Assembly (NCBI GenBank): GCA_037447655.1
Contig: JBBHKE010003420.1
Location: forward strand, 129,301-193,300
Direction of reading: 5' to 3'
Source of the DNA: Zygnema cylindricum
Lineage: Eukaryota > Streptophyta > Zygnematophyceae > Zygnematales > Zygnemataceae
Length of the DNA stretch: 64,000 nt
How positions within the stretch are numbered: position 1 is the first letter of the stretch; every line of letters starts with the position of its first letter. Shown here piece after piece: positions 53,348 to 59,487 of the stretch. The translations under genes were made by a program, and so were the position numbers. The notes below the pieces were generated by a model. That model was not told where the DNA came from. It saw only the letters and a list, made by a program, of their open reading frames with translations, and made no database searches.

Positions 53348-53477
53348 ATGGCGAATTTGTCTGTAGCTAGGATTTCGATCGTTTTGTGGAGTTCAATGTT
53401 GTTGGCTTCTACGGCTCCATTGGGTTTCGCTGAATCAAAAAATGTGGAAATCGAAAATGCACTTTCCAGCGATATCG
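53348..53477 (+). CDS. Gene C exon 1 (signal peptide)
   Basis: 130 nt, ATG to GTACG donor. Codes MANLSVARISIVLWSSMLLA then STAPLGFAE; hydrophobic core of about 15 residues and cleavage expected after GFA. The frame also runs on past the donor to 53521, but the homologous donor in A and B supports splicing. Confidence 0.8.
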
Positions 53478-56400
53478 GTACGTTTTTTCCGGAAGCCGGA
53501 AGCAGTACTTTATTGTTATAACTCTTTCTTTTTATTCTTTATATTGTCCATGTATTGTTGTGGCTTTTCTTGTATTTGGTGCTATACTCATTATTGGTGA
53601 GAATTTTGATGCTTTACTTCCATGGTGGTATAGAATGGACGTTTTTTTGGTAACATTTCGAATATTTTGTTTCCAACTTTCCTCTTTCAGATTCGTTTGG
53701 CGCAACTGGGCGCAATCTTCTCGAAGACGAACGTGGTAAAACCCAATCTCCTCAAAACAACGAAAAAGAACGAAACAACTCGCAATATAATACGCATAAC
53801 CAAAAAAAATGTGGTTATTTTTCCCGAATAGAGAGAAACGTCATTCCTTCATTTCCTTTTTTGTCTCATTCCATATTTGACTCTTGAGTTTTCAATCATG
53901 TCTCTTTTGATTTTATATTAGCAAAAGTAAAAATGTAAAATCAAGTCAGCATTTATTAACGATTGGTTTCCGATTGGTTTACCAAACGTTATAGATGTTT
54001 ACGAAATTATCGATTAACATCACTTGTGGATTGACATTCCTTGCTGCGAATAACCATGCATTAGCATAGAATTGCATAAGTTGGTGTGTATCAGCGGCCA
54101 TAAATAGTTGTGGATATAAGACATGAAATTGTCTATTGCTTTCTTTAACATAAGACATGAAAATTTTCTATTGTTTTCTTTTATCAAGTTTTCCTTTTCT
54201 TATCCCTGTATGACTCTCTCTTTCTCTTCCTTAAGCCTTTCTCCCCCTCTCCCTCTCCCCCTCTCCCCCTCTCTCCCTCCCCCCCCCCCTACTCCCACTT
54301 CCTTACTCCTCATTGTCCTGATCCCTGCACTCCATAGACCGTGCCTTTGCCACTCGCCGAATCCGGGTCAGAATCGGCTTTTGGGGAAATTCTTGGGAAG
54401 GATTTTTGAGGAAGGGAGGGGTTTGAGGAAGGAGGGTTTTTGAGGAAGGGAGGGTTTTTGAGGAAGGGAGGTTTTTTGAGAAAGGGGGGATTTTGAGGAA
54501 GGAAGTGGTTTTGAGGAAGGGCAGGTTTTCGAGAATGGAAATGTTTTCGAGAAAGAGAGGGTTTTTGAGGAAGGACGGGTTTTGAGGAATGGCTTTGAGG
54601 GTAGTTTTGGGAAGGTTTGTGAGGAGTTTTTGTGAATTTCGGCGAGGTTATTGGGAGTCCTTGGTAGGTTACTGTGGTGGGGTAGGCTACTGAGATTAAT
54701 GAGGAGGATTTTTGGGGAGGATTTTTGGGGAGGTTATTAAGAATTTTGGGGAGGTTTTTTGGAAGTTTCCGGGGGATTTTTTTTGGGGAGTTTTAGGGAG
54801 GTTATAGGAGTTTACCCACGACTAGGGGTGGAAATTGTTGTTTGTTATTTTTCAGACGTTGCCGTTGTTTATTATGGAGGATTTTGAGGAATTAGTTTTG
54901 TATTTTTGGATTTTACTTTTGTAGTCTACACTTGATTTAATGTGGAAAGTACAAGCCTCCAGAAATCAATTATTTATTAATAAAGGAAACTTTTTATTTA
55001 TTTATTTCATACTTGAATTTCCAATGAAAGTGTTACGATGATAAAAATATATATTTTCAATTTTCTTGAAAGCGAGATGTTTTCCACCAAACGGCTCTGT
55101 ATTTCATTGTTACTTTTCGTTTTTACTTACACTTTTTGATTGACACTACTTCTTGTTTCCAGGACGAAAAACGATGGAGGAGGACAGGGAATCTCTTGAA
55201 GATGCCGGAGGTGTCACCCTCTCTCACTTTTGACCTCCATTCATATCTCTCTCTCACTATGCAACTTGTTTATGCCCGCCCAGCTTAATCACGCCTCTAT
55301 CATAACTTCTCTTCCTTCCCCTCCCCCTCTCTCTCTCCTCCCGCCCTCAACCGTCCTAACTCAATCTCTCCCTTTCCCTCCACCCCTCTCTATCTGATTT
55401 ATACAGGTCTTGTTTCCTACGATTTTTTACCTTTACAATTTTGTCATTCTTTTGTACATTTTTTTTCTTTCGTTCTGCCTGTAAATCAGTATCTGATTCC
55501 AACTACTTTCTTTTTTTCCAGAACGGGAAACAATGGAGGAGGACAGGGAAATACTAGAAGACGCAAGAGGTCTCTCTTTCTCAGTTTTATCTCTCTCTCT
55601 TTCCATCTCTCTCTCTCTCTCTCTCTCTCTCTCTCNNNNNNNNNNNNNNNNNNNNNNNNNNNNNNNNNNNNNNNNNNNNNNNNNNNNNNNNNNTCTCTCT
55701 CTCTCTCTCTCTCTCTCTCTCTCTCTCTCTCTCTCTTCTCTCTCTCTCTCTCTCTCTCTCTCTCTCTCTCTCTCTCTCTTCTCTCTCTCTCTCTCTCTCT
55801 CTCTCTCTCTCTCTCTCTCTCTTCTCTCTCTCTCTCTCTCTCTCTCTCTCTCTCTCTCTCTCTCTCTCTCTCTCTCTCTCTCTCTCTCTCTCTCTCTCTC
55901 TCTCTCTTTCTCTCTCTCTCTCTCTCTCTCTCTCTCTCTCTCTCTCACTCTCTCCCTCTTTCTCCCCCTTTCCCTCTTTCTCCCCCTTTCCCTCTCTCTC
56001 CCCTCTCCCTCTCATTCCTCCCTCTTTCTCCCATTCTCTCCCTCTCTCCTTCTTCCCCTCTTCTATCCTCTTCCCCTCATCTTTCTCTCCCATTGTTCCT
56101 CCCTCTCCCCATTCTCTTTCATCCCTTTCTTGGGCCCCTCCCCCTCTCTCTCCCCTTCTCCCCTCTTCTCCAATTTCCAATGTTTCTCCCTCTCCTTATT
56201 CCATTTTACCACTCTCCCCGTCTCCCACTCTCCCTCACTCTTTATTTCCCCCTTCCCCTCCCCCTTCTCTCTCTCCCCTTCTCTCTCCTCTGTGCCTGCC
56301 CAGTCCTTAAGCCCAGTTCCAAGAAGTCCCGGCCCTCTAAGCCCCAGCCCCTGCAGTGTCCAGCCGACCGCCCCTATCTGGTGTTCGGGCGGTGCTCCGT

Positions 56401-59400: not shown

Positions 59401-59487
59401 CAAAGTTTTTTTTTTTTTTTTCTCATTTTTTTTTTATTGTTTTTTTTAATTTTTTTTTTCGTTTTTCGTTTTTATGATGCAGATTGA
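53348..59487 (+). CDS. Gene C: secreted microexon-built protein, intact frame
   Basis: Exons: 53348-53477, 53691-53735, 55163-55210, 55522-55569, 56304-56429, 57055-57102, 57272-57535, 58332-58379, 58683-58730, 59483-59487. They total 810 nt, a continuous frame of 269 residues: signal peptide, two acidic repeats, a 4-Cys module, one repeat, a Lys-Pro linker with a second 4-Cys module, two repeats, stop. All junctions are AG/GT and phase 1. It is the best-preserved member and lies head-to-head with gene B. The 8-Cys exon of A and B is missing; only a remnant is seen near 54338-54366. A gap of Ns lies in the intron after 55569, so further exons could be hidden. Function unknown; export and disulfide-rich modules are the supported properties. 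Confidence 0.75.
53691..53735 (+). CDS. Gene C exon 2 (45 nt)
   Basis: CTTTCAG acceptor, GTAAAA donor; reads DSFGATGRNLLEDERG. Confidence 0.75.
54338..54370 (+). pseudogene. Remnant of a Cys-rich exon in gene C
   Basis: A pyrimidine tract and CCATAG precede ACCGTGCCTTTGCCACTCGC, and GGGTCAG resembling the Cys-exon donor follows. Only 29 nt remain, out of phase and without Cys. The TTTTGAGGAAGGGAGGG-type repeats that follow Cys exons elsewhere begin right after it. Confidence 0.4.
54385..54830 (+). repeat. G-rich intronic repeat of gene C
   Basis: About twenty runs of GGGAGG/TTTTTGAGGAAGG. Comparable G-rich blocks on the transcribed sense strand follow the Cys exons at 56580-56720 and 57745-57830, and on the minus strand at 10040-10190, 12240-12480, 33720-33970, 36240-36320 and 39860-40030. 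Confidence 0.7.
55163..55210 (+). CDS. Gene C microexon, 48 nt
   Basis: TTTCCAG acceptor, GTGTCAC donor; reads GRKTMEEDRESLEDAGG. Confidence 0.7.
55522..55569 (+). CDS. Gene C microexon, 48 nt
   Basis: TTTCCAG acceptor, GTCTCTC donor; reads ERETMEEDREILEDARG. The first Gly of the repeat becomes Glu. Confidence 0.7.
55594..55950 (+). repeat. (TC)n microsatellite with assembly gap
   Basis: Almost pure CT repeat over about 350 bp, interrupted by 58 Ns at 55636-55693. True length is unknown; the Arg-Glu and Ser-Leu frames over it are artefacts. Confidence 0.95.
56304..56429 (+). CDS. Gene C Cys-rich exon 1
   Basis: 126 nt, TGCCCAG acceptor, GTAGTG donor. A Lys/Ser/Pro linker then CPADRPYLVFGRCSVC and a fourth Cys (C-x11-C-x2-C-x5-C). 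Confidence 0.7.
57055..57102 (+). CDS. Gene C microexon, 48 nt
   Basis: GTTTCAG acceptor, GTCTCTC donor; reads GRGTMEQDRQTLEDYEG, the most diverged intact copy. Confidence 0.7.
57272..57535 (+). CDS. Gene C Cys-rich exon 2 with KPQPS repeat linker
   Basis: 264 nt, CTCCCAG acceptor, GTGGTG donor. About eleven short KPxPS-type repeats (such as SKPQPSKPYPSKPQS) precede CTAERPYLVFGRCSMC and a fourth Cys. The repeats arose by tandem copying of CCTTCGAAGCCCCAG. A decayed microexon piece (ACTCTTGAAGATGTCGAAG) lies at 57945-57966. Confidence 0.7.
58332..58379 (+). CDS. Gene C microexon, 48 nt
   Basis: TTTATAG acceptor, GTCTCTC donor; reads GRGTMERDRETLEDTGG. Confidence 0.7.
58683..58730 (+). CDS. 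Gene C microexon, 48 nt (last)
   Basis: TTTGCAG acceptor, GTCTCTC donor; reads GRKVMEEDREILEDARG. A pyrimidine-rich intron to about 59370 follows. Confidence 0.7.

Follow-up and report, generated by a model that had tools for sequence, protein, structure and literature searches.

Among described systems, the closest functional plan to that predicted for the algal proteins considered here appears to be the Ib-AMP precursor of Impatiens balsamina, in which a signal peptide is followed by several basic Cys-rich domains with acidic spacers between them (PMC10136942, PMC4695807). Two other kinds of plant peptide show part of this plan, namely alpha-hairpinins, which are Cys-rich peptides from multimodule precursors, and thionins, which are basic peptides with an acidic prodomain (PMC10136942). 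At the level of gene architecture, the MEGs of schistosomes, defined by a coding sequence that consists largely of 6-81-bp exons, usually of a length divisible by three, encode secreted proteins with a signal peptide through many short exons separated by long introns, and are hard to annotate (PMC10526429), and in the bicycle genes of aphids numerous small internal exons, almost all of which begin at codon position 2, encode putative secreted, rapidly evolving effectors (PMC9168663). Here we describe three genes (A, B and C) and the tail of a fourth in 64,000 nucleotides (nt) of the streptophyte alga Zygnema cylindricum (the window; C2560:129301-193300, part of a 200,264-base scaffold), which resemble each of these systems in part.

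A first-pass annotation, made from the letters of the window alone, had interpreted these genes as one family, whose secreted products are put together from 48-nt microexons and Cys-rich exons. Exon lengths, phase and borders, an excess of silent changes, the promoters and the order of exons in a dispersed copy on C1969 support this interpretation, and the genes are accordingly read below as predicted members of such a family. We further propose, giving it close to an even chance, that the products are lineage-specific secreted prepro-proteins which would be cut at acidic spacers to release cationic Cys-rich peptides. The principles involved, symmetric small exons in secreted families and precursors with acidic spacers, are known, and are newly combined here in genes for which no relative was found. 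If transcripts prove this to be true, a plant-lineage case would join the microexon-built secreted families of schistosomes and aphids, and microexon gene architecture would be united with the plan of a multi-peptide antimicrobial precursor.

Results and Discussion

Gene C (53348-59487, + strand, as are all its exons) can be read from the sequence as ten exons with nine predicted junctions and a 269-amino acid product, which reproduces the layout proposed in the first-pass annotation. Exon 1 (53348-53477, 130 nt, donor GTACGT) encodes the signal peptide, recognised by eye, and has nine copies on the scaffold and three elsewhere; exon 2 (53691-53735, 45 nt) encodes DSFGATGRNLLEDER(G), with an RxLL motif. 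Two microexons of 48 nt (55163-55210 and 55522-55569) are followed by the first Cys exon (56304-56429, 126 nt, 4 Cys, net charge +9), a third 48-nt microexon (57055-57102), the second Cys exon (57272-57535, 264 nt, a Ser-Lys-Pro repeat plus a 4-Cys module, net charge +15), two more microexons of 48 nt (58332-58379 and 58683-58730) and the coding part of the terminal exon (59483-59487), with a TGA stop at 59485-59487. All internal exons have lengths that are multiples of three and are in phase 1-1, 8/8 beginning at codon position 2. The coding total is 810 nt, 390 nt of which lie in the two Cys exons; the small exons seen in the family measure 42-51 nt. The term microexon is used loosely here because one plant paper applies it to exons of about 1-15 bp (PMC11096116), so that 48 nt is a small exon in the stricter sense.

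The earlier proposal that the 48-nt blocks are coding exons is backed by their silent changes, by their fixed phase and lengths and by their sharp borders. As counted by parsimony on one tree, with an assumed transition weight, 26 microexon sequences have undergone 42 silent and 50 replacement changes, where 26% silent changes would be expected (p=3.4e-5), and nine signal exons 40 silent and 64 replacement changes (p=0.0086). Pooled pairwise dN/dS (replacement over silent rates), taken over pairs that are not independent, was 0.29 among 29 microexons, including two with a stop, and 0.39 among the nine signal exons; five pairs of Cys exons gave a provisional w of 0.24-0.74, from few changes. 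Arg2 of the microexon is invariant in 26/26 sequences through five codons, and Arg9 and Glu13 are also invariant, which is less informative because their codons barely vary. Divergence rises from 0.25-0.27 in the exons through 0.36-0.37 at the splice signals to 0.55-0.63 further out, and length differences among microexon copies stay in frame. It could be argued that the 48-nt blocks only resemble exons and are in fact non-coding, as repeated regulatory elements or sequences carried by repeats would be, and they are indeed found together with CT-rich repeats. This explanation is barely credible in view of the silent-change excess, the in-frame length differences, the Arg kept invariant through five codons and the fixed phase and borders.

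The blocks were also compared with chance expectation. A profile of 26 microexons found 30 matches above 20 bits in the window and none in 20 Markov-shuffled versions, where the best score was 11.2. A profile built from only the nine exons outside the window found 30 window matches at E<=1e-3, two of which fall within a single block. Twenty-one blocks of the window are intact, meaning that they were chosen for an AG border, phase 1, a length divisible by three and a GT border; most of the others, in genes A and B, are degenerate.

From the signals at their borders, we infer that these exons are spliced as predicted. In the set of 33 blocks selected for AG and GT borders, a TTTGTGTTTCCAG-like acceptor context is conserved upstream, and YTNAY words begin mostly at -29, -27 and -25, and also at -15. 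The 15 Cys exons all have an in-phase AG acceptor (14 CAG and one TAG) and in-phase GT donors. Over intron bases 7-106, the introns after microexons have a mean of 86% C+T and 0.0 GGG per 100 nt (32 of the 33, one with N being omitted), those that follow the 15 Cys exons are rich in G and T and have 9.0 GGG per 100 nt, and neither pattern is seen after the nine signal exons. Inclusion of the two kinds of exon might, as a guess, be regulated by CU-binding and G-run-binding factors. Donors of the form GTCTCT run into long CT tracts, in gene C (55163-58730) and in other microexon copies.

Eleven family loci were read from the exon inventory of the scaffold; the window contains three of them (A, B and C) and the tail of a fourth. 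The inventory contains nine signal exons, ten copies of the 45-nt exon (eight with clean borders) and 11 terminal exons, and two of the 11 loci have no recognisable signal exon. The 45-nt exon, the microexon arrays and the Cys exons, which had been described as common to A, B and C, recur in all three. The signal exon had been given as exactly 130 nt, which is correct for A, B and C but not across the scaffold, where seven of nine copies are 130 nt and two are 127 nt when measured between the matching ATG and GTAC/GTA donor (with automatic choice, one copy came out at 142 nt, counted from an in-frame ATG further upstream, and another at 121). Likewise, the shared terminal stop exon stands for A, C and the tail of the fourth gene but not for B, which has no usual TGA; on the whole scaffold, 7/11 terminal exons, including these three, have the stop at nt 3-5.

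Gene A (9195-16334, - strand) has a signal exon at 16334-16205, a 45-nt exon at 15968-15924, Cys exons at 15317-15141, 12657-12511 and 10408-10211 and a terminal exon from 9199. Seven of its ten microexon blocks are on the intact list, the others being at 13597 (with a stop), 13418 (frameshift) and 11866 (altered 3' end). Gene B (32895-43264, - strand) has a signal exon at 43264-43135, a 45-nt exon at 42729-42685, Cys exons at 42233-42066, 40167-40057, 38064-37951, 36436-36323 and 34102-33998 and a terminal exon from 32924; nine of its microexon blocks are intact and several others broken. A segment of about 1.0 kb in gene B has been duplicated, with inserted DNA (36214-38861; starts at about 36214 and 37842), which left the gene with a pair of identical Cys exons; the block at 38970 is cut short at the edge of this region. 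The terminal exon of the fourth gene is present at 121-125 (+ strand), as had been noted for a 'tail of D', but the gene itself, now called F, begins about 5.2 kb upstream of the window, with its signal exon at C2560:124128. A run of 3,110 N (scaffold 126191-129300) lies inside gene F and stops right before window base 1.

Block copy number differs between genes, from no microexon above 20 bits in gene H to about 13 blocks in gene B by hand count, and decayed exons are retained, with broken blocks in A and B and one relic in C (57945-57973, + strand, with profile scores of 18.4 and 22.5 bits in two scans). The locus could thus be a decaying relic of formerly coding genes whose spliced product is no longer made, a possibility that draws on these broken blocks, on the usual stop missing in B and three other copies, on the duplication and insertion in B and on the odd donors. 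Given that the ten exons of gene C are intact, that silent changes are in excess among copies and that the 12 copies, of which three are dispersed, have promoters that are similar by eye, we consider it very unlikely.

Copies outside the scaffold were sought in the 352.8-Mb genome. A 32-base microexon core pattern with up to three mismatches gave at least 27 matches genome-wide (24 on the home scaffold, two on C1969 and one on C76), and its reversed control gave none. The signal-exon protein gave 12 matches at E<=10, nine on the home scaffold and one each on C693, C1440 and C1969. The C1969 match is weak when taken alone (E 0.002); in this copy the signal exon is followed by two microexons and then a Cys exon, on the same strand and in the order seen in the family, and in one of its microexons the last base before GT is A, where most have G. 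On C693, the signal exon is accompanied by a 45-nt exon and a single weak microexon (28.6 bits), and no Cys module of the usual kind was found in the 11 kb examined there. The Cys modules on C1969 and C1440 differ strongly from those of the window and keep a similar Cys framework.

In the predicted proteins, the signal peptide is followed by a DPLGATGRHLLEDGR-like segment and then by acidic units and basic Cys modules. The microexon peptides have a net charge of -2 to -6 in 21/21 intact window exons, and the Cys modules one of +8 to +17, with 4, 6 or 8 Cys, in 9/9 distinct window exons (one of gene B's two identical exons being counted). A typical Cys module reads C-x3-(R)P(Y/F)-...-GRC-x3-CP-...-C. 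RxxL occurs in 32/33 microexons and Rx(L/I)L in 8/8 clean 45-nt exons, and the motif of the SBT6.1/S1P subtilase is RxxL/RxLx (PMC13082318).

Set beside Ib-AMP, which has four Cys per domain and spacers of 16-35 residues, the predicted Cys exons encode 4, 6 or 8 Cys and the spacers are units of about 16 residues; CXXXC is found in Ib-AMP and in most modules here, C1 and C2 having CXXC instead, and the Ib-AMP peptide is 20 residues long with a CC doublet, whereas the modules here are longer and more varied (PMC10136942, PMC4695807). No CC doublet was seen in them by eye. Also unlike Ib-AMP, the algal genes have one exon per unit, form a tandem family and have no database match. An alpha-hairpinin module contains two CXXXC motifs; by eye, at most one is present here in single-module exons, and two in the double exons A1, B1 and A3, with further Cys between them.

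MEG exons mostly measure 15 bp and encode proteins with many apolar residues, in contrast to the 45-48-nt repeats of an acidic motif and the Cys exons found here (PMC10526429), and MEGs belong to organisms of a different kingdom. No credible homologue was found in the protein database with either query, MEG motifs not being directly compared. Many bicycle proteins have two CYC motifs, none of which was seen by eye in models A, B and C, and the gene-structure classifier for bicycle genes, run on A and C with its printed, aphid-trained coefficients, gave probabilities of 0.0006 for C and, from approximate inputs, 0.0017 for A (PMC9168663). The comparison with MEGs and bicycle genes made in the first-pass annotation is apt as gene architecture but not as homology, and we do not claim that the algal genes belong to the Ib-AMP, MEG, bicycle or hairpinin families.

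On the prepro-protein reading, the signal peptide would direct the protein out of the cell; next would come a short segment with the motif TGRHLLED, and after it cationic Cys modules, each encoded by one larger exon, set among acidic units of about 16 residues, each encoded by one small exon. These acidic units may act as charge-neutralising spacers, and the RxxL (S1P/SBT6.1 type) in nearly all of them may mark cut sites of the precursor. Cutting there would release cationic peptides with disulfide bonds, whose role would most likely be antimicrobial or in defence. We infer cleavage, disulfides, antimicrobial activity and exon skipping; because the internal exons of gene C are multiples of three in phase 1-1, duplication, loss or skipping of a module could leave the reading frame intact.

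The promoters may place the family under WRKY control, judging from their sequence. The gene C promoter (53128-53168, + strand) has three W-box-like TTGAC elements at -220, -207 and -185, and 24 W-boxes lie within 300 nt upstream of 12 signal exons, compared with a mean of 3.8 and a maximum of 10 in 1000 base shuffles, an excess which is suggestive only because the promoter copies are related by descent. A genome search with the WRKY domain gave 35 matches at E<=0.001 (best 1.6e-25), some of which may be transposon-borne, and 0/14 control genomes, of unspecified nature, had one; WRKY genes suggest an organism of the green lineage.

The alternation of charged blocks would also fit an uncut, secreted, charge-balanced and disulfide-crosslinked protein of the wall, mucilage or an adhesive, in which the spacer and Cys exons included would tune length and charge pattern. 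The near-zero net charge of the chosen models, the Ser-Lys-Pro-rich stretch in the gene C exon at 57272-57535 and the wide variation in block number among genes are consistent with such a matrix protein. W-box-rich promoters and an RxxL in nearly every spacer suit processing better, and no credible relative of any sort was found in Pfam or the protein database, so that we see in it a real but minor possibility. A diversified recognition or interaction protein, with symmetric cassettes that are alternatively spliced as proposed for MEGs, and a role in mating, in symbiosis or in action on attackers, is in our view unlikely. It would account for the symmetric phase-1 exons and the tandem gene cluster, for decayed exons, harmless if skipped, and for non-consensus donors, suggestive of regulated inclusion, but would not require the charge alternation or the even Cys counts.

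Several observations weigh against the release of peptides from a spliced precursor, or against the readings on which it depends. The donor is GTCTCT, far from GTAAGT, in 25/33 microexons; the 45-nt exons show 10 silent and 14 replacement changes in eight sequences, which is not significant (p=0.18); and the usual stop is missing in 4/11 terminal exons. Gene H has no microexon above 20 bits, so spacers are not in every gene. The even Cys counts depend on the donors chosen, and the net charges of the chosen models (C +3, A +8, B 0) hinge, for A and B, on omitting broken exons. RxxL is a short, weak motif, the repeat that holds it is Arg-rich and shared by descent, and conservation at R9/L12 does not exceed that at R2, E6 or E13. 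Gene J has no W-box in 600 nt, and the W-box excess is drawn from related sequences. The fold predicted by AlphaFold for the Cys module, from one Cys exon and nine sequences, is of low confidence (predicted local distance difference test score, pLDDT, of 65), and a Foldseek search of PDB with this model, too weak to use, gave no match.

The prepro-protein reading can be extended to a diversified plant-lineage repertoire of secreted defence peptides, produced from a tandem precursor cluster by combinatorial splicing of frame-neutral cassettes, in which spacers would be included through weak GTCTCT donors lying in CU tracts, Cys exons through introns with G-runs, and the genes controlled by WRKY factors. 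In this extended form, we regard it as doubtful.

The first-pass annotation had not recognised the family and had called for a protein search; no known family was found in Pfam or the protein database. In Pfam, the best matches of models A and C and of one gene B Cys exon were far below the curated cut-offs, and an alignment of the three models gave no match at E<=10 among the best 7,994 candidates scored from 5.8 billion proteins. Among 1,435 candidates, the 269-amino acid model C had a sole match, P0001 (E 3.3e-4), which was set aside as Ser-Lys-Pro low complexity. PDB sequences searched with one gene B Cys exon only gave three chance-level matches (E above 6), Rfam gave nothing at the gathering threshold, and no description of the family was found in the part of the open-licence PubMed Central literature covered, which does not prove its absence. 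The blank in Pfam and the protein database is weak evidence of uniqueness, because an exon-split family would be absent from databases wherever gene prediction fails.

Other features of the window and scaffold

Between genes A and B lies a Copia-type long terminal repeat retrotransposon (25441-31151, identified with Pfam), the end repeats of which (25441-25740 and 30852-31151) are 99% alike; because they are near-identical, the insertion is probably recent. Direct repeats at 18443-20874, about 1.7 kb apart and 97-99% alike, lie beside a 136-bp tandem repeat and possibly represent a small non-autonomous element. The window also contains a predicted tRNA-Glu (CTC) gene (1919-1991, - strand) and a minisatellite-like repeat (63092-63796) with open frames on both strands. 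Elsewhere on the scaffold, an open reading frame at C2560:101957-103297 encodes a product with some resemblance, by eye, to a Harbinger-type transposase.

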